64,000 bases of DNA from an uncultured Synechococcaceae cyanobacterium (GCA_902578445.1 CACHDC010000003.1:1-64000), one strand, 5' to 3'. Counted from the first letter of the stretch, positions 36,232 through 47,319 are shown. Translations and numbers: made by a program. The notes: generated by a model not told the origin, from the sequence alone.

Positions 36232-37422
36232 ATGTCAAATAAACATCTAAAAAAGTGTTCAATATGTAGTTCAAGTAATCTACAAGAGTTATTAGATCTG
36301 CCATCGCTACCATTAACAGGCTTGTATTTTCCAACCAAAGAACAAGCATTATCCTCAGACTCCTATGACCAAGGATTAAACATATGCAAAGACTGTGGAC
36401 ATGTACAACTCAGAAACGCAATTGATCCTGAAAAAGTTTATGACGATACCTATACTCACAGATCATCTGGTTCTCCTATATCAAAAAGTGGAAATGATTT
36501 TCTCTTCAATTATTTAAATACTAAATTTAACATTAATTCAGAAACTAAGCTTCTTGAGGTTGGGTGTAATGATGGCTACCTCTTGGAGAAGATTTCTCCC
36601 AAAACAAAATCAGCTGTTGGAATTGATCCGATTTGGATTAATAATACTCCTCCGGAATCTGACTCATATAAGATTTTTGGTGGATATGCTAATGAAGTTC
36701 ACAATAAAATCCCTCCAAAATATTCCCCAAACTTTGTTGTTTCTGCCCATACTTTTGAACATACTGTATCCCTTTTTGATGAGCTTAAATTTGTAGTTGA
36801 TTTTGCTGAAGAAGACTCTGATTTTGTCATCGAAATGCCAAGTTTTGATACACTCTTAAGACTAAGGAGATTTGATCAGGTATTTCATCAGCATATTCAA
36901 TATATTTCTGAATCTTCTATATCAGTATTAGTAAAAAGACTTAAATGTTCTCTTATAGATATTAAATATAACTATAGTTATTGGGGCGGAACAGTAATTT
37001 TTAGTTTCAAAAAGGGCCTATCTAATAATCATAATTTCTCTACAAATCAAATTAATAGTCAAGATTTAATCGATGAGGCAATCTCAGACTTCAATTTATA
37101 CCGGAATTTACTAGCAAAACAGGTTTGCTTTCATGAAAAGATTTTTTATTTAGGTGCAGCACAAATGTTGCCAATACTTCATTATCATCTTAAATCAGAG
37201 ATACCAAATATTGAGGCAATATTTGATGATAATAAATTAAGAATAGGAAAATTCCTACCTTCTCTTCATCAAGAAATTATTCCTTTGGCGGGAATAAAAA
37301 AAGAAGAATTATTCTCAGCAGGTTTAATTGTGGGAGCAGTTGACTCAGGTAAGGCTTTAATTTCAAGAACAAGAGATATAGGATTGGCAAATATTTATTC
37401 TTACTATCAAAATATAATTTAA
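36232..37422 (+). CDS. Class I SAM methyltransferase of the sugar C-methyltransferase type (zinc-binding N-terminus)
   Basis: CSICSSS...LNICKDCGHVQL zinc motif; LLEVGCNDGYLLE SAM motif; FDQVFHQHIQYIS. Confidence 0.85.
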   Translation: MSNKHLKKCSICSSSNLQELLDLPSLPLTGLYFPTKEQALSSDSYDQGLNICKDCGHVQLRNAIDPEKVYDDTYTHRSSGSPISKSGNDFLFNYLNTKFNINSETKLLEVGCNDGYLLEKISPKTKSAVGIDPIWINNTPPESDSYKIFGGYANEVHNKIPPKYSPNFVVSAHTFEHTVSLFDELKFVVDFAEEDSDFVIEMPSFDTLLRLRRFDQVFHQHIQYISESSISVLVKRLKCSLIDIKYNYSYWGGTVIFSFKKGLSNNHNFSTNQINSQDLIDEAISDFNLYRNLLAKQVCFHEKIFYLGAAQMLPILHYHLKSEIPNIEAIFDDNKLRIGKFLPSLHQEIIPLAGIKKEELFSAGLIVGAVDSGKALISRTRDIGLANIYSYYQNII

Positions 37423-37536
37423 CTTATGAGTAAAAGTTAACTTTTAAAGTAACTAAATCAATTACTAAGTTGTTGTTGATAAAGTTAATTTAATAGAGGT
37501 TTACTTATTTTTATTTAAAAGTTTTAGCTAGTTTTT

Positions 37537-38325
37537 ATGGACCTAGGAATACTAAACAAAAGAGCATTAGTGACTGGAGGATGTAATGGTATTGGAAGGC
37601 AACTGACTCTAGATCTTTTGGAGGAAGGTTGTTATGTTACTGCTACTACAAGGTCATTGGATGTTGGAGAGGAATTTATTAATTCGCTTAATAAAAAATT
37701 TAGAAATAGATTTAACTTTCTTATTGCAGAACTATCTTCTAAAGCAAAACTTCTCAATTTTATCAATACAAATAAATTTGATTTTGATATTTTGATTAAT
37801 AATGCTGGACATACTTTAAATTTAAAAAGCCCTAACTGTTCTATGGATGAGTGGGAAAGCATTTTTACTTTAAATTTTTTAAGTGTTGTTAAATTAACTG
37901 ATGAATGCATTCCTTATATGAGAAATAAAAAATGGGGAAGAATTGTTAATATTACATCATGCGCAGGATTCGAAAACTCTGGACCTGTTACATATACATG
38001 TTCAAAATCAGCGTTAACGGCTTATACGAGAACAATGGGCCGAATCCTTGCGGTAGAAGATCCGGGGATAGTTATGACTGCTGTTTATCCAGGAGTAATC
38101 AAGACAAAAGGAGGACATTGGGAAAAGGTTTTAGAAGTTAATCCTGAACACGCAAAAAAATATTTAGCAGAGAGATGCCCTCTTGGCAGATTTGGAGAGA
38201 CTTCAGAATTTTCACCTACAGTTATTTTCTTTTGTTCAAACCAGGCTTCATTTGCTCATGGAACTATTGTTGGGATAGATGGCGGACAAAGTCGCCATTT
38301 TTTGCATGCTAATTATGAACCATGA
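37537..38325 (+). CDS. Short-chain dehydrogenase/reductase
   Basis: RALVTGGCNGIGRQL, NNAGHT, YTCSK (YxxxK). Confidence 0.9.
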   Translation: MDLGILNKRALVTGGCNGIGRQLTLDLLEEGCYVTATTRSLDVGEEFINSLNKKFRNRFNFLIAELSSKAKLLNFINTNKFDFDILINNAGHTLNLKSPNCSMDEWESIFTLNFLSVVKLTDECIPYMRNKKWGRIVNITSCAGFENSGPVTYTCSKSALTAYTRTMGRILAVEDPGIVMTAVYPGVIKTKGGHWEKVLEVNPEHAKKYLAERCPLGRFGETSEFSPTVIFFCSNQASFAHGTIVGIDGGQSRHFLHANYEP

Positions 38326-40139
38326 TGAACGATTTAAAACTAACAGATGTAGTTGCATTAAATCTGCAAAATTTCGGAATTAAAAATGCTTTTGGTGTTC
38401 AAGGTGGTGCAGTAGTACATATTTTCGATTCTCTCGAGAGATTAACTGATATTAATGTTTGTTATAACCATCATGAACAAGCTTCTTCATTAGCAGCTGT
38501 GTCAAATTCCAAAATAAAAAATAATATTGGAGTCTGTATTGTTACTACTGGTCCCGCGACTACAAATGCCTTGACAGGGTTGTTATCTGCTTGGCAGGAC
38601 TCTATACCTGTTTTATTTATTTCTGGACAAACTCGCAAAGAACAAACTAGTTATGGAAAAAATGTAAGGCAAAGAGGTTCTCAAGAATGTAATATCCTTG
38701 ATGTTGTGAAACCTTGGACAAAAGCACAATATTTTATTGATTCTGATTCTGATATTGATACCGTGATGAAAGAAGCATTATCAATAGCATCTCAACCAAG
38801 GCGAGGACCTGTTTGGATTGATATCCCAGTCAATTTGCAATGGTCTAAATATGAATTCAAAGAAAGTTTGAATGAAGATAATTCAAAAAGAGTTCTCGTC
38901 CATAATAGAGAAGTTGATCCAGTAATAAATTCACTAATTGCAAAACTGAAGTCCTCACAAAAACCACTTTTTGTATTAGGTAGACAAGCTTATAGCGATA
39001 AGATTTTAAATCAATTCCTAGGCTTTTTAAATTCTAATTCAATTCCTGTTGTCACCACTTGGGGTAGTGCGGGTCTTGTTGGTTCTAAAGCAAATCATAT
39101 TGGCATTATTGGGGTAAGTGGTCAACAGGCAGCTAATTTTGCTATTAGGGCGTCTGATCTGGTTATTTTTGTTGGATGTCATTTTTCAGCTACTCAAGCG
39201 GGCAATAACTACACTAAAATCTCTCAATCTCAGAAGTTTTTTTATGTAAATATCGATGATGCGGAATTGAGTGATTTATTTGTAAAAAATAATCATTCCA
39301 AGATTCTTTCAAATACCAGTTATTTCCTAGAGAAGGTATGTTCCTTTAGTGAAATTAAAAATGAATTCTTTAATAAATGGAAAAATTTTTTAAGTGAAGT
39401 TTCAGATGATTTATCACCAAATAATTGTGTAGATAAACTTGATATAACTGGTTACTCTAATCCTCATAAATTTATTTTTGAACTTTATTCTCATCTAAAT
39501 AGTGATGATTTGGTGGTTGTTGATGGTGGTGGATGTGCTCTTTATGCAGGATTCCAATGTTTACCCAAAAAAGCAAACTTTAAAGTGATTTGCAGCACAG
39601 CAATATCTGCTATGGGAACAGGATTGCCTGAATTAGTCGGAGTATCAACAATAGGCGCGCACAAAAGGTATTTTTGTATAATAGGAGATGGTAGTTTGAT
39701 GTTTAATTTACAGGAGCTTCAAACTTTAAAAACTAATTCTCCTTCATGCCTCATTATTGTTATAAATAATAATGGTTATCTAGCAATTAGACATACTCAA
39801 AGCCAATTTTTAGGAAGTAGATATTACGGGACTTCTCCTTTTAATGACGGGTTACAAATACCTAAAATTTCAGATATTGCTAAAACGTTTAATTATGAAT
39901 ACTTAAGGTTGGATGAAACTTCCGATTTTAATTCAATATTAAAACAGGGATTAGGGCATGACCAGCATACAATTATTGAGATTTTTGCAAGTCCCTCTCA
40001 TTCAAATTTATTTAGCGCAAGTTTTACAGATAATAAAGATGGTACTTTTTCTCCTAATGACATTCATCAGATGATCCCGTTTGACAATTATGATTATGTT
40101 TCTAAAGCATTAAAGCATAGGGTGAATCTTGAGAAATGA
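38322..40139 (+). CDS. Thiamine diphosphate-dependent enzyme (acetolactate-synthase-like superfamily)
   Basis: NHHEQASSLAA catalytic Glu region, TGPATTNALTGLLSAWQDSIPVLFISGQ, GDGSLMFNLQELQTL...NNNGY ThDP motif; ATGA overlap with previous gene. Confidence 0.92.
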   Translation: MMNDLKLTDVVALNLQNFGIKNAFGVQGGAVVHIFDSLERLTDINVCYNHHEQASSLAAVSNSKIKNNIGVCIVTTGPATTNALTGLLSAWQDSIPVLFISGQTRKEQTSYGKNVRQRGSQECNILDVVKPWTKAQYFIDSDSDIDTVMKEALSIASQPRRGPVWIDIPVNLQWSKYEFKESLNEDNSKRVLVHNREVDPVINSLIAKLKSSQKPLFVLGRQAYSDKILNQFLGFLNSNSIPVVTTWGSAGLVGSKANHIGIIGVSGQQAANFAIRASDLVIFVGCHFSATQAGNNYTKISQSQKFFYVNIDDAELSDLFVKNNHSKILSNTSYFLEKVCSFSEIKNEFFNKWKNFLSEVSDDLSPNNCVDKLDITGYSNPHKFIFELYSHLNSDDLVVVDGGGCALYAGFQCLPKKANFKVICSTAISAMGTGLPELVGVSTIGAHKRYFCIIGDGSLMFNLQELQTLKTNSPSCLIIVINNNGYLAIRHTQSQFLGSRYYGTSPFNDGLQIPKISDIAKTFNYEYLRLDETSDFNSILKQGLGHDQHTIIEIFASPSHSNLFSASFTDNKDGTFSPNDIHQMIPFDNYDYVSKALKHRVNLEK

Positions 40140-41305
40140 ATTTTGCTGATTTTACTGATGATCTTAAAGGTCAGAAGATGTTTCAAATTCTTTCTAAAGC
40201 CAAAGAGTTGGAGACTAAAGGACAAGATGTAATTCACTTAGAAATTGGTGATCCTGATTTCAATAGTCCTGAAATAGCCAAACAAAGCATAAAAAGATGT
40301 ATTGATAAAAATATTACTCACTATGTACAAAGTTCTGGATTGCCAGAATTAAAAAATTCATGTGTTAGGGCAACTCAAAAATCAAGAGGGTTTTCTCCCA
40401 GCCATAATCAGCTTCTTGTTACATCAGGTGCAAATATACAGATATATTTAGCCCTAGCATGTTTAATTAACCCTGGTGATGAAATAATATTGCCTGACCC
40501 CTCATTTGTTAGTTATTCATCTATTATTCATTCATGTAGAGGTGTTGCAAGATATGTTCCATTACGAGAATCAAATCTTTTTAAATTAGATCCAAAAGAT
40601 ATCGAAAAAGTTATCACTAAAAAAACTAAAGCAATTATTATAAATTCCCCTCATAATCCAACTGGAGCAGTCTTAGATGAAGATGTAATGAGATCAATTT
40701 ATTTGATTTGTGAGAAGTATGGTCTTTTTTTAATATCAGATGAAGTTTATGGACGAATGATATTTAGTGAATTTGAAAATTCTTTTTTTTCTCCTTCACA
40801 AATTGATCATTGTAAAGAAAGAACAATTTTAATTCATTCTTTTAGTAAAACTTTTGCCATGACTGGATGGAGAATTGGTGCGGTTACTGGTCCAGAGATA
40901 TTAATAAAAAAAATGGGATTACTATTTGAGACAATTACATCATGTGTGCCGCCTTTTATACAAATTGCAGCAGCAGAGGTTTTAGATGCGGGCCCACAAT
41001 TAACTAAAGATATGATTAATGAATATCAATTGAGAAGGGATTTATTAGTGAATGGACTTAATTCAATAGAGGGTATCTGTTGTAATAAATCAGAGGGAAC
41101 TTTTTATGCGTTTGCAAATATAAAATCAATAAATGCCAGTAGTGAAATCTTTTCAAATGATTTATTGAATAAACAATTTATTGCAACTTGTCCAGGAGTA
41201 TATTTCGGAAAAAATGGAGAGGGGTTTGTTAGATTTTGCTTTGCTAATTCTAGAGAGAATATTAAAAAAGCAATTGATAGATTACAAAAAAAATTTAATA
41301 AATGA
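40136..41305 (+). CDS. Class I/II PLP-dependent aminotransferase
   Basis: EIGDPDFNSP, NSPHNPTGAVL, SFSKTFAMTGWRIG; ATGA overlap with previous gene. Confidence 0.92.
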   Translation: MNFADFTDDLKGQKMFQILSKAKELETKGQDVIHLEIGDPDFNSPEIAKQSIKRCIDKNITHYVQSSGLPELKNSCVRATQKSRGFSPSHNQLLVTSGANIQIYLALACLINPGDEIILPDPSFVSYSSIIHSCRGVARYVPLRESNLFKLDPKDIEKVITKKTKAIIINSPHNPTGAVLDEDVMRSIYLICEKYGLFLISDEVYGRMIFSEFENSFFSPSQIDHCKERTILIHSFSKTFAMTGWRIGAVTGPEILIKKMGLLFETITSCVPPFIQIAAAEVLDAGPQLTKDMINEYQLRRDLLVNGLNSIEGICCNKSEGTFYAFANIKSINASSEIFSNDLLNKQFIATCPGVYFGKNGEGFVRFCFANSRENIKKAIDRLQKKFNK

Positions 41306-41571: not shown

Positions 41572-42612
41572 TTACTGTTTGAAATATTCTTGGAGACAAG
41601 AATAATTTGTACTAGAGAAATCCCAATTATTGAAAAAATTTATAATATCTTTCTTTTGAAACAAAGATCTAAACTTTTCATTATCAGTCCAAGTATACTC
41701 TTCCCTCCATTTGAGTCTGTCAAATGTATTTTGTAAAATATTATTCTTAGGATAAACATGTTGGAAGAATTCATAAATTTTTCTTAAGTTTTTATTTTGA
41801 GTAAAAAATTTTTTATCTCCATATTCGTATAAAGAAATGAATATTGATAAAATAGCTGATCTTTGAAAAGCATATAAAACAAATGGATGTTTATCTTTGT
41901 CTTTAATAGCTAAGTCATGAATTCTAATATCAAATGATATTCTTTGTTTACTTTTTGGCTTTGTAGCTCCGTGTAAATCGTACCAGCTAAAAACATAAGC
42001 TTGACCTTTTTCTAATTGAGGTCTTTTAATGTAATCAGACATTTCTTTGTCTACCAAGAGATGGTTCTTAACGTATTTTGTTGAATCATATTGATTTATT
42101 TTGCTTTCAGATGGGAAAAGATTATTAACATTTCTTGCTTTTTCAAAGAAACAAAGACCTCCAGTTTCATCGTTAATATCTACCAAAGCCAACCAAAAAG
42201 AAAAAGCTTTAATTCCAAAAGATCTGTCGTAGTGTGGTTGAGAATCAAAAAGGGCATCATTTATCGTGTGTTTGTGATTTATTTTTGGAGATGTAATCCT
42301 AAAATAAAATATGGGATGTAGAAAATATTCGTGATTAGGGTCAAATTTATTCATCGCTATTGTAAGCTTTTGATGTAACCAGTTGGGCCCTAATTTTAAT
42401 AATATTCTTGTGGCTAAAATCTTCATGCCAATTGATTCGTGCCATATGGTTTTTTCACAGAAAATTTTAAAATTTTCGTCACCTATTTTATAGTCGTTAT
42501 ATAGTTCTTCTAATTCATTTAATGCAAGCTGATTAAATAAATCTGATTCTTCATTATTTAGAATATCTGCTACTTTTGGAAATGATGTTTGCAGCTCTTT
42601 TTCAGAAATCAA
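41572..42612 (-). CDS. PhyH-like 2-oxoglutarate/Fe(II) dioxygenase-type protein
   Basis: HYDRSFGIKAFSFWLALVDINDETGGLCFFEKARN and distal AYVFSWYDLHGATKPKSKQRISFDIRI give an HxD...H...R arrangement. Confidence 0.65.
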   Translation of the reverse strand: MISEKELQTSFPKVADILNNEESDLFNQLALNELEELYNDYKIGDENFKIFCEKTIWHESIGMKILATRILLKLGPNWLHQKLTIAMNKFDPNHEYFLHPIFYFRITSPKINHKHTINDALFDSQPHYDRSFGIKAFSFWLALVDINDETGGLCFFEKARNVNNLFPSESKINQYDSTKYVKNHLLVDKEMSDYIKRPQLEKGQAYVFSWYDLHGATKPKSKQRISFDIRIHDLAIKDKDKHPFVLYAFQRSAILSIFISLYEYGDKKFFTQNKNLRKIYEFFQHVYPKNNILQNTFDRLKWREEYTWTDNEKFRSLFQKKDIINFFNNWDFSSTNYSCLQEYFKQ

Positions 42613-42705: not shown

Positions 42706-43803
42706 CTAATTCTTATGAAGAATTTTCATGATACTTTTTAAATCTAAAACTGAATAGTTCTTATAGTTTTCATACCACATTAGATATGTTCCAAGGGAAA
42801 GATATGGTTGATCACCTATTTCTAAATTATAAAATTTTTTAAAATATTGATTGTTATCATCAATTGAACCTTTTCCATAATTAGTAATAATTGTTTTCGA
42901 ATTGTTTAATAAGGTTGAAGCTCCTGATGGTCCTGATGGTTGAATTAAATTAACTAAACTATTTTTATAAATTAAGAGTCTCTGATATAGATTTTTACGA
43001 GCTAATTCGCATATATCAATATTTTGAGTGTTGTAACTTGTGATTTTATTTATGTCATCAGGAACTAATAAAATCTTACAGTTTAATTCTTTTGAAAAAT
43101 CGTAGGCTATATCGATGTCTTTTTGTGAACTGTTTCTGCCGGGGGAATGTCCGTAATCTCTTAAAGTGATTGTTATGTATTTTTCTTTTAGATAAAAATT
43201 ATTATGATCTCTTTCTTTTTTTGGTACTTTCTTAATATCCATAAAATTGTTTGAATTAACATTTTCTTTCCTTAAGATTTCATGAACTTTCCAATAACAT
43301 AAAGGTTCAGGATAAAAGTATTTTGGATGATAATATCTTGGCATTAAACTTGCATATTTTATTAATCTTTGCAATTTATTTTTTTCATTACAAAACTCAA
43401 TGCTGTTTATACAATTAAAAGACTTTGCTAAAGGTAATATCAAATCTTCAATCCTGCTTTTTAAATCATTACTACTTAAATATTTATTATAAGAATTAAA
43501 TTTTGGGACAATATATTTGTAATCTCTCGGAATAAAAATTATTAATTTAAATCCATTCTTTGGCTTTTTGAATTTATAAAAACTATAAAAAATTACCCAA
43601 ACGAAATCAAAAGTTATCGCGTTATTTCTTATATCCCAAACTAAAACTTCATCTTTTGATTTGTATTTATAAATATTCTCAATAATTATTCTTAATATTT
43701 GAAAAAAGAAAGAAATTAAATAACTATAACTTCTGCTTGGCTTAATAAATTCATTTCTAATCTTAAAAAGAAAACAGTTTATTTTCTTTGATAACTGTCT
43801 CAT
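42706..43803 (-). CDS. Hypothetical protein, possible glycosyltransferase-like
   Basis: 365-aa ORF, charged, in island; C-terminal region resembles GT-B donor-side layout but no diagnostic motif. Confidence 0.6.
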   Translation of the reverse strand: MRQLSKKINCFLFKIRNEFIKPSRSYSYLISFFFQILRIIIENIYKYKSKDEVLVWDIRNNAITFDFVWVIFYSFYKFKKPKNGFKLIIFIPRDYKYIVPKFNSYNKYLSSNDLKSRIEDLILPLAKSFNCINSIEFCNEKNKLQRLIKYASLMPRYYHPKYFYPEPLCYWKVHEILRKENVNSNNFMDIKKVPKKERDHNNFYLKEKYITITLRDYGHSPGRNSSQKDIDIAYDFSKELNCKILLVPDDINKITSYNTQNIDICELARKNLYQRLLIYKNSLVNLIQPSGPSGASTLLNNSKTIITNYGKGSIDDNNQYFKKFYNLEIGDQPYLSLGTYLMWYENYKNYSVLDLKSIMKILHKN

Positions 43804-44347: not shown

Positions 44348-44420
44348 GGGGCCATAGCTCAGATGGTAGAGCACCTGCATGGCATGCAGGGGGTCAGGAG
44401 TTCGAATCTCCTTGGCTCCA
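44348..44420 (+). tRNA. tRNA-Ala (anticodon GGC)
   Basis: Cloverleaf: acceptor GGGGCCA/TGGCTCC, anticodon arm CCTGC-ATGGCAT-GCAGG, T arm AGGAG-TTCGAAT-CTCCT. Confidence 0.96.
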
Positions 44421-44711
44421 CTCAAGTTATCTGTTATAGAATTTGATTGAAGAGATTCCCAAGTTTCAAATGATTAAACTGAAAATTTCATCTTTTTTCA
44501 AAAAGTAGGCTGATCTTGTGATCCTCCTAGCTTTGCAATAGGAAATCGTATATTTTTGGGCTAAAAATGAACATAATAGAATTAAAGCTTTGACCTGCCA
44601 CTAAATTAAACGCATGATAAACTCAAATTTCTTACTCTTTTTTATTTGATCTCTTTGACATAATTTTCTCTTTAAACAATAAACTGTATAGTTATAAAAA
44701 AAACTAACATT

Positions 44712-46154
44712 TTGTCTGAGAATAGTCTTCTTCAACCAGTTATATTATCAGGGGGTTCTGGTACAAGGCTATGGCCTTTATCAAGAAAAAATTTTCCTAA
44801 ACAATATATTCAATTCAACTTAAATAGTAAATACTCTTCTTTGCAGAAAACGCAAATCAGATTATTTGGTATAAAAAATATTCAAAACCCACTCATTATT
44901 TGTAATGAAGAACAAAGATTTCTCGTGGCAGAACAAATGAGAGAGATTAAGGTCAAGCCAAGGTCTATTATTTTAGAACCTGAAGGAAGAAATACTGCCC
45001 CAGCAATTGCTATTGCGGCTTTAAAAGCAATAGAAGAAAATAAAGACCCTATTTTATTAATACTATCTTCAGATCATGAGATTGAAAATCAAGAAAAATT
45101 TATTGAGATTGTAAAGGCTGGTATTAAAACTGCAAATAGAGATAAATTAGTAAACTTCGGAGTTAAACCTACTTGCCCAGAAACGGGTTACGGATATATT
45201 GAAGCAATTGAAAATATACAAAATGATTCTTTAGAGTCTGTTAAAATAAACCGCTTTATTGAAAAGCCAAATAAAGAAAAGGCAATTTGTTATGTAAGAG
45301 ATGAACATTATTTTTGGAATAGCGGAATCTTTTTATTCAAAGCAAGCATAATATTAAAAGAATTAGAAAAATTCCAACCAAAATTATTAGAGTATTGCAA
45401 ATTATCGATTAAAAATTCTTCAAAAGATTTTGATTTTCAGAGATTAGAAAAACAGTCTTTTAAAAAATGTCCGGATTTATCTATTGATTATGCAGTGATG
45501 GAAAATACTGATAATGCTTATGTAATTCCATTCAACGCTGGGTGGAGTGATGTAGGGAGTTGGAAGTCCTTATGGAATTTAGAAAAAAAAGATAAAAATG
45601 GAAATTCTGTTATTGGAGATATTAAAGTCAGAAGTGTAAAAAATTGCTATTTAAATAGTACAAAAAAATTATTAGTAGCTATTGGAACTGAGGATTTGAT
45701 AATAGTTCAAACAAACGATGCCACACTCGTTGCTAATCATAATTATTCTCAAGAAATTAAAGATGTTGTAAGTCACTTGAATTTAGAAAATAGGTCAGAA
45801 GGAAGAGAACATCGAAAAGTATTCAGACCATGGGGTTATTACAACACAATAGAAAAAGAGTCTAATTGGCAAATAAAAGAAATATTAGTCAAGCCATATT
45901 CATCTCTTTCCTTGCAAAAACATAAATTTAGATCCGAGCATTGGATTATTCTCAAGGGAGAAGCCAAGATTGAAATTAATAATGAAAAAATAACCTTAAA
46001 AGAAAACCAAAGCACATTTATTCCCGCTGGAGCAAAACATAGGTTATCAAACAACCAAGAAACTTCCTTAAGATTAATAGAGGTTCAATCTGGATCATAT
46101 TTGGGTGAAGATGATATTTACAGATATGATGATAATTATGGTCGAAAATCCTAA
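44712..46154 (+). CDS. manC: Mannose-1-phosphate guanylyltransferase/mannose-6-phosphate isomerase
   Basis: ILSGGSGTRLWPLSRKNFPKQ, EPEGRNTAPAIA, FIEKPNKEKA, RPWGYYNTIE, LQKHKFRSEHWIILKGEAKI; TTG start. Confidence 0.95.
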   Translation: MSENSLLQPVILSGGSGTRLWPLSRKNFPKQYIQFNLNSKYSSLQKTQIRLFGIKNIQNPLIICNEEQRFLVAEQMREIKVKPRSIILEPEGRNTAPAIAIAALKAIEENKDPILLILSSDHEIENQEKFIEIVKAGIKTANRDKLVNFGVKPTCPETGYGYIEAIENIQNDSLESVKINRFIEKPNKEKAICYVRDEHYFWNSGIFLFKASIILKELEKFQPKLLEYCKLSIKNSSKDFDFQRLEKQSFKKCPDLSIDYAVMENTDNAYVIPFNAGWSDVGSWKSLWNLEKKDKNGNSVIGDIKVRSVKNCYLNSTKKLLVAIGTEDLIIVQTNDATLVANHNYSQEIKDVVSHLNLENRSEGREHRKVFRPWGYYNTIEKESNWQIKEILVKPYSSLSLQKHKFRSEHWIILKGEAKIEINNEKITLKENQSTFIPAGAKHRLSNNQETSLRLIEVQSGSYLGEDDIYRYDDNYGRKS

Positions 46155-46182: not shown

Positions 46183-47319
46183 ATGATATCAAGTAAGAAA
46201 GCATTAATAACGGGAATAACAGGCCAAGATGGAAGTTATCTTGCTGAATTTCTTTTGGAAAAAGGTTATGAAGTTCATGGAGTTAAAAGAAGATCAAGTA
46301 GCTTTAATACGGAAAGAATTGATCATCTCTATCAAGATCCTCATGAGCACTCACCAAACCTAACCCTGCATTATGGCGATTTAACTGATAGCACAAATCT
46401 AATAAGAATTCTTCAAAATATTCAACCTGATGAGATTTATAATTTGGGAGCGCAAAGTCATGTTGCAGTAAGTTTTGAAACTCCTGAATACACAGCTAAT
46501 TGCGATGCAATTGGAACTCTGCGAATTTTGGAAGCTATAAGGATATTGAAACTTACTAAGAAAACTAAATTTTATCAAGCAAGTACAAGTGAACTCTATG
46601 GAAAGATTCAAGAATCGCCCCAAAATGAAACCACACCTTTTTATCCAAGAAGTCCGTATGGGGTTGCAAAATTATATGCTTACTGGATAACAATAAACTA
46701 TAGAGAAGCTTATGGGATTTATGCTTGTAACGGAATATTGTTTAATCATGAAAGTCCTAGAAGAGGTGAAACTTTTGTTACTAGAAAAATAACAAGGGGC
46801 CTTGCAAGGATTGATGCTGGTTTAGATAAGTGTATATATCTTGGAAATTTGAACTCCAAGAGAGATTGGGGGCATGCTAAAGATTATGTAAGAATGCAAT
46901 GGTTAATGCTTCAACAAAATGAGCCTGAAGATTTTGTTATTGCTACAGGAAGGATGGAAACAGTAAGAAAATTTATAGAAATATGTGCTAAAAAACTTAA
47001 ATGGGATACAAACTCAGATGGCAAGGGCATTATATGGGAAGGTACAGGACTTGAAGAAGTTGGTAGAAGAGCAGATACTAAAGAGATAGTTATTAAAATA
47101 GATCCAAGATATTTTCGTCCTACTGAAGTCGAAGAACTAAGAGGAGATTCTCAAAAAAGCTTTAAAAAACTGGGATGGGAACCTGAGTTTACGCTAGAAG
47201 AGATGATTGAAGAGATGATCAATGAAGATAAAAATAAAGCAATGCAGGAATCTTTTCTAAAAAAAGAGGGGTTTCAGATTTCAAGCAATTTTGAATCTCC
47301 CCCAACTAATAAAAATTAA
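46183..47319 (+). CDS. gmd: GDP-mannose 4,6-dehydratase
   Basis: [53 protein letters not shown]. Confidence 0.97.

Follow-up and report, generated by a model that had tools for sequence, protein, structure and literature searches.

What surface metabolite might be made by a cassette of four adjoining genes at 36232-41305 of a cyanobacterial genome fragment, and do all four belong to one pathway? The fragment, called the window below, is the whole stretch of 64,000 nt that was analysed; it lies on contig C3 of a 1.23-Mb genome that is ~74% complete, and its gene content and composition suggest a Prochlorococcus-like picocyanobacterium as host. The cassette comprises a methyltransferase (MT; 36232..37422, +, 396 aa, PF08421 and PF13489), a short-chain dehydrogenase/reductase (SDR; 37537..38325, +, 262 aa, PF00106), a thiamine diphosphate (ThDP)-dependent enzyme (38322..40139, +, 605 aa, PF02776/PF00205/PF02775) and an aminotransferase (AT; 40136..41305, +, 389 aa, PF00155), all with matches over the Pfam cut-offs. 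The reading favoured here, at a probability of about one half, is that the cassette encodes a variant of the YerE route to a branched-chain sugar of the surface polysaccharide, in which AT makes the donor, the ThDP enzyme couples it to a nucleoside diphosphate (NDP)-4-ketosugar, and SDR and MT tailor the sugar. The chemistry, YerE-type branching, is known, but the gene combination is new. Literature searches for the four-gene combination gave nothing relevant, and a survey of >200 YerE-like enzymes, cited in PMC12247030, may already list some of the loci.

The first-pass annotation had described four co-oriented genes with the last three coupled, and the reading frames were confirmed to the base. 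At the SDR/ThDP junction the sequence reads ATGATGA at 38322, the start codon of the ThDP gene overlapping the SDR stop codon, and at the ThDP/AT junction a 4-nt overlap, ATGA at 40136, joins the AT start to the ThDP stop. Judging from these overlaps, SDR, ThDP and AT are translationally coupled. MT is separated from SDR by 114 nt, a gap with no terminator-like site, and the genes flanking the cassette on either side are on the opposite strand, so that the four cassette genes can form one transcript.

Identity of the ThDP enzyme

Sequence, tree and fold agree that the ThDP enzyme is a YerE-like carboligase. Among PDB sequences the highest scores are for 8rph (JanthE, of Janthinobacterium sp. 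HH01; 230 bits) and 5ahk (173 bits), followed by acetohydroxyacid synthases (AHAS) at 151 bits or less. The 5ahk entry is titled acetohydroxy acid synthase from Pseudomonas protegens and is taken here to be PpYerE, of which a review mentions a structure. Among fold matches to an AlphaFold model (mean pLDDT 78.7, pTM 0.85), JanthE ranks first (E 3e-43, TM 0.85), above AHAS and PpYerE. In a maximum-likelihood tree, AHAS and glyoxylate carboligase (Gcl) are separated from all other sequences at 100/100, and the window enzyme groups with that of a Pelagibacterales locus, L118 (99/96), then with those of Pelagibacter L004 (95/93) and of L038, from the same genus as the window (100/99). The motif HHEQ is present in every YerE-like row of the residue table, in contrast to RHEQ, RHVE or RHEE in AHAS, Gcl and PoxB. 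The window enzyme would probably attach a carbon side-chain to a sugar.

JanthE is the best match in both sequence and fold, at 27% identity, but differs in several respects. It clusters at 100/100 with actinobacterial enzymes, those encoded beside an acetaldehyde dehydrogenase/4-hydroxy-2-oxovalerate aldolase pair, and not in the clade of the window enzyme. Its motif is CDG, as against the canonical GDG of the window enzyme, and opposite its FAD-stabilising Y268 and P293 the alignment places S266 and T291. Of the ThDP pocket residues in the window enzyme, the ThDP motif (GDG 455-457 ... NNN) and the catalytic glutamate, E52 within HHEQ, are present. JanthE K567 could not be placed on the window enzyme with confidence, the alignment being unreliable towards the C terminus.

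The earlier label of an acetolactate-synthase-like enzyme is better replaced by YerE-like. A housekeeping acetolactate synthase was rejected, since the NCBIfam acetolactate synthase models score far short of their cut-offs (for TIGR00118, 243 bits where 538 are required), the enzyme falls outside the AHAS group in the tree and its best PDB matches are YerE-like; the genome has an IlvB-like gene of its own (L001). Relatives of the ThDP enzyme occur in 15 of 200 genomes of the genus, window included, the others at 28-37% identity.

Tailoring enzymes and the linked module

METHYLTRANSFERASE (MT) matches the sugar 3-C-methyltransferases TylC3 and TcaB9, with 4rv9 and 3ndi as best PDB matches. It shares with that family the Zn-binding N-terminal domain, the S-adenosylmethionine (SAM) domain, the C-terminal GA...DDN..R.GKFLP region and a His equivalent to H225 of TcaB9, and its Zn cysteines C9, C12, C52 and C55 are invariant across four homologues. 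The active-site motif is FDQVFHQH, compared with FDQIYDEH in TcaB9 and FDTIYHEH in TylC3; TcaB9 Y222/E224/H225 align to F218/Q220/H221, and only the His of the three is kept, Tyr222 being replaced by Phe and Glu224 by Gln. Two of the three SAR11 homologues (L004 and L107) have the same Phe/Gln variant, and the third (L108) has HHQH, with His and Gln. The deposited TcaB9 chains 4e2x and 4e2y carry single changes at those same two positions, which are important for catalysis in TcaB9. With both positions changed in MT, substrate or mechanism may differ. The description of MT as a sugar-type C-methyltransferase therefore holds for the family, and C-methylation is predicted from family membership.

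The window SDR is a classical short-chain dehydrogenase with an intact YxxxK motif. An aldo-keto reductase carries out reduction of the C-4 acetyl branch in paulomycin biosynthesis, and the yersiniose cluster lacks a homologue of it (PMC4753412). A reductase of a different family is thus expected there, and the window SDR is a candidate.

Evidence that these enzymes work together comes from other genomes. Orthologues of SDR (43-45% identity) adjoin ThDP and/or MT genes in three SAR11 genomes, in each of which SDR is single copy at 1e-30. In Pelagibacter L004, SDR (44%), MT (36%) and ThDP (36%) are contiguous in that order; in L108 (SAR11), ThDP (45%, N-terminal 290 aa only), MT (28%) and SDR (43%) lie inside ~4 kb; and in L118, ThDP (43%) adjoins SDR (44%). 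An MT homologue (34%) is close to the contig end in a further SAR11 genome, L107, in which no SDR orthologue was found. Elsewhere these genes are rare. MT at 1e-40 has no match in 199 other genomes of the genus or 385 other cyanobacteria (1/386, the window genome only), and SDR has none in 144 other genomes of the genus (1/145, again the window genome only). The order of the module genes varies among genomes. Chance does not explain why close orthologues this rare lie together, in rearranged order, in two phyla; the pattern is most naturally read as a functional unit spread by lateral transfer, and MT, SDR and ThDP are supported as a transferable core by their independent co-occurrence. The neighbourhood search proposed for the four-gene set thus recovered MT, SDR and ThDP as a recurring linked group, without AT. 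The PDB matches, tree and fold bear out the earlier suggestion of a YerE-type carboligase, here within a surface-glycan island; the four genes neither matched a characterised pathway as orthologues nor were found elsewhere only independently, with no co-occurrence.

Mobile elements were considered as a source. A phage origin was rejected, there being no relatives of MT or SDR on viral contigs; huge-phage records gave two distant matches to MT (23-27%), and the matches to ThDP and AT were only weak. Plasmid relatives were likewise set aside: none were found for MT, the ThDP matches are only AHAS-like, and those of AT (34-36%) are generic. In addition, split transketolases, whose N- and C-terminal halves are encoded by separate genes, lie near MT or YerE-like ThDP genes in L118 (11000-12732), L107 (8087-9324) and L108 (17162-18879), all SAR11, and in a Succinivibrionaceae metagenome-assembled genome (L021, 9939-11730); transketolases have likewise been proposed as sugar-branching enzymes.

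Donor, acceptor and competing explanations

AT is a class I pyridoxal phosphate (PLP) enzyme with the PLP lysine, NPTG and the carboxylate-binding arginine all present, and scores 220 bits for Aminotran_1_2 and 42 bits for DegT_DnrJ_EryC1. The first-pass labels of SDR and class I aminotransferase are consistent with the Pfam matches, and a DegT-type sugar aminotransferase was rejected, DegT not being its main family. Assignment as an aspartate aminotransferase was also set aside, as AT, like Pyrococcus 1gd9, has Asn where most of the compared paralogues have Lys; this is only suggestive. No close orthologue was found outside this genome, and relatives within the genus, present in most genomes, are only 31-34% paralogues. 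No orthologue at E 1e-75 or better was seen in 170 Pseudomonadota, a search that had no positive control and shows little. No full-length AT homologue lies beside any of ~45 related loci, so that a conserved unit of all four genes is not supported. The PLP lysine and carboxylate arginine make sugar amination less likely than 2-oxoacid supply, and the simplest role that we infer for AT is the formation of a 2-oxoacid from an amino acid.

Related loci offer an analogy for such a role. An acetaldehyde dehydrogenase and a 4-hydroxy-2-oxovalerate aldolase (DmpF/DmpG) are encoded beside ThDP in seven loci (L011, L012, L013, L015, L017, L018 and L038), the checked examples exceeding NCBIfam subfamily cut-offs, and in L004 an aldolase and the terminal part of a dehydrogenase lie next to ThDP, where the contig breaks off. 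In the synthetic direction, DmpF/DmpG convert acetyl-CoA and pyruvate to 4-hydroxy-2-oxovalerate. This source of a 4-hydroxy-2-oxoacid is absent from the window cassette, in which AT occupies the corresponding position. Donor-supplying genes may thus be exchangeable, DmpF/DmpG in the relatives and AT in the window. ErwE prefers 4-hydroxy-2-oxoacids (PMC12247030) and JanthE accepts 4-hydroxy-2-oxovalerate (PMC12188165).

Comparison with characterised pathways places the cassette near, but not within, known routes. The YerE pathway to yersiniose A of the Yersinia pseudotuberculosis O-antigen has the same broad ThDP group, a surface-glycan setting and a candidate 4-ketosugar acceptor in common with the window. 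However, its donor is pyruvate and its acceptor CDP-3,6-dideoxy-4-keto-glucose, and at the window no RfbH is seen and the carboligase is linked to MT, an SDR of classical type and a class I aminotransferase. The ErwE (erwiniose) and MMAR_2332 (caryophyllose) pathways use longer 2-oxoacid donors, and relatives of the window enzyme adjoin 4-hydroxy-2-oxovalerate genes (L004, L038, L011, L012, L018), with RfbH also present in L012 and a CDP-glucose cytidylyltransferase in L018. The window differs in having no aldolase pair, which AT may replace, and in the addition of MT.

In the proposed YerE-route variant, AT would transaminate an amino acid to the 2-oxoacid donor. The ThDP enzyme would then decarboxylate this 2-oxoacid and add the acyl unit to an NDP-4-keto-6-deoxysugar at its ketone, which would become a tertiary alcohol bearing the branch; the enzyme family is supported by sequence, tree and fold, and the reaction is predicted. 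SDR would reduce the keto group remaining in the branch, as in the ketoreduction step of other C-4 branched sugars. MT, as its family suggests, would methylate a sugar carbon, probably beside the ketone and before branching, with an altered active site.

The earlier note had named a branched/amino sugar or an acyl/amino substituent of the surface glycan, and a branched sugar is favoured here. AT could instead aminate a product carbonyl, in the branch or the sugar ketone, after the same YerE-like core, yielding a branched amino sugar. Its place as the last gene, with a 4-nt overlap with ThDP, would fit a late step, and it belongs to a class I type that is broad. This outcome is nevertheless rather unlikely, since AT retains an arginine for an alpha-carboxylate that a ketosugar does not have and scores far higher for Aminotran_1_2 than for DegT; known sugar aminotransferases are DegT-type. 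A greater departure would be a non-sugar acyl or amino-acid substituent, formed when the ThDP enzyme joins two 2-oxoacids, SDR reduces, MT methylates and AT aminates the product, which is then attached to the glycan. All four chemistries fit 2-oxoacid metabolism and AT resembles an amino-acid enzyme, but the ThDP enzyme lies outside the AHAS group and nearest to enzymes for which ketone acceptors have been characterised, the closest matches of MT are sugar 3-C-methyltransferases, and no ligase or amino-acyltransferase was recognised beside the cassette, which together make the proposal distinctly improbable. A similarly low likelihood is given to the view that MT, SDR and ThDP form a branched-sugar module in which AT has no part, AT being carried along in an island of rapid gene turnover. 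The absence of AT from the related loci agrees with this, as do the gene shuffling of such islands and the differing module order, but the 4-nt overlap makes co-translation with ThDP likely, and AT sits where relatives carry donor-supply genes.

Several observations also weigh against the YerE-route variant itself. MT has neither the Tyr nor the Glu found in the TcaB9 active site, and FAD binding by the ThDP enzyme is uncertain, given S266 and T291. In the SDRs of L108 (11332-12108) and L118 (10215-11000), unlike those of the window and L004, Phe replaces the catalytic Tyr (FNASK), so that module SDRs need not all be ordinary reductases. AT is linked to a YerE-like ThDP gene only in the window, and its place in the pathway thus rests on position and analogy. 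Moreover, no RfbH/DdhC 3-deoxygenase was seen in the window or contig C15 of this incomplete genome (~74%), so that use of the yersiniose and erwiniose acceptor is not supported.

Enzymes for other candidate acceptors are encoded. In the window, a mannose-1-phosphate guanylyltransferase/phosphomannose isomerase (44712..46154, +; TIGR01479) and a GDP-mannose 4,6-dehydratase (Gmd; 46183..47319, +; TIGR01472), which makes GDP-4-keto-6-deoxymannose, both exceed their cut-offs and may supply the acceptor, their link to the cassette being putative. RmlA and RmlB are encoded on contig C22, and a glucose-1-phosphate cytidylyltransferase (RfbF) and CDP-glucose 4,6-dehydratase (RfbG) on contig C15, apart from the carboligase. 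By these annotations, GDP-, dTDP- and CDP-4-keto-6-deoxysugars all have enzymes encoded in the genome and are candidate acceptors. Contig C15 carries a second sugar island (L134 16616-18477, L135 6510-8557), with the CDP-glucose 4,6-dehydratase, the cytidylyltransferase and what appears by eye to be a two-gene E1-type dehydrogenase pair.

The surrounding island and its meaning

Gene content and composition suggest that a surface-polysaccharide island extends from ~21.7 kb onwards in the window (GC 30%), with NDP-sugar enzymes, glycosyltransferases and polysaccharide export genes. A tandem pair of fatty-acid-hydroxylase family genes (PF04116; 24962-27231, -) lies at its start. Convergent with the cassette, the gene at 41572-42612 (-) has a weak PF05721 (phytanoyl-CoA dioxygenase) match, E 0.003 and below cut-off, and may encode a sugar-modifying oxygenase. 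The next gene (42706-43803, -) has no Pfam match; its homologue in L038 (7956-9055, -) is split into two ORFs and adjoins a YerE-like ThDP gene. The island also contains a tRNA-Ala (GGC; 44348-44421, +) and a gene resembling fumarate reductase/succinate dehydrogenase flavoproteins (PF00890, PF02910; 50339-52093, -). An arylsulfotransferase-like gene (PF14269; 48710-50143, +) and a sulfotransferase gene (PF13469; 55843-56886, -) raise the prospect that the surface glycan may be sulfated.

A wider proposal is put forward tentatively: Prochlorococcus-like cyanobacteria and SAR11 may share, through horizontal transfer, a module for a new C-methylated, C-branched surface sugar with a modular donor side, either an aldolase pair or an amino-acid aminotransferase. 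Prochlorococcus and SAR11 are among the commonest cells of the ocean and vary in their surface polysaccharide islands under phage pressure, yet the chemistry that these islands encode is mostly unknown. A module common to both would give a testable class of structures, the tertiary-alcohol branched sugars, and would also provide biocatalysis with new YerE-like carboligases, whose donors could be predicted by a genomic rule from the neighbouring genes, an aldolase pair or an aminotransferase. If the proposal is true, the branch of such a sugar could be built from the carbon skeleton of an amino acid.

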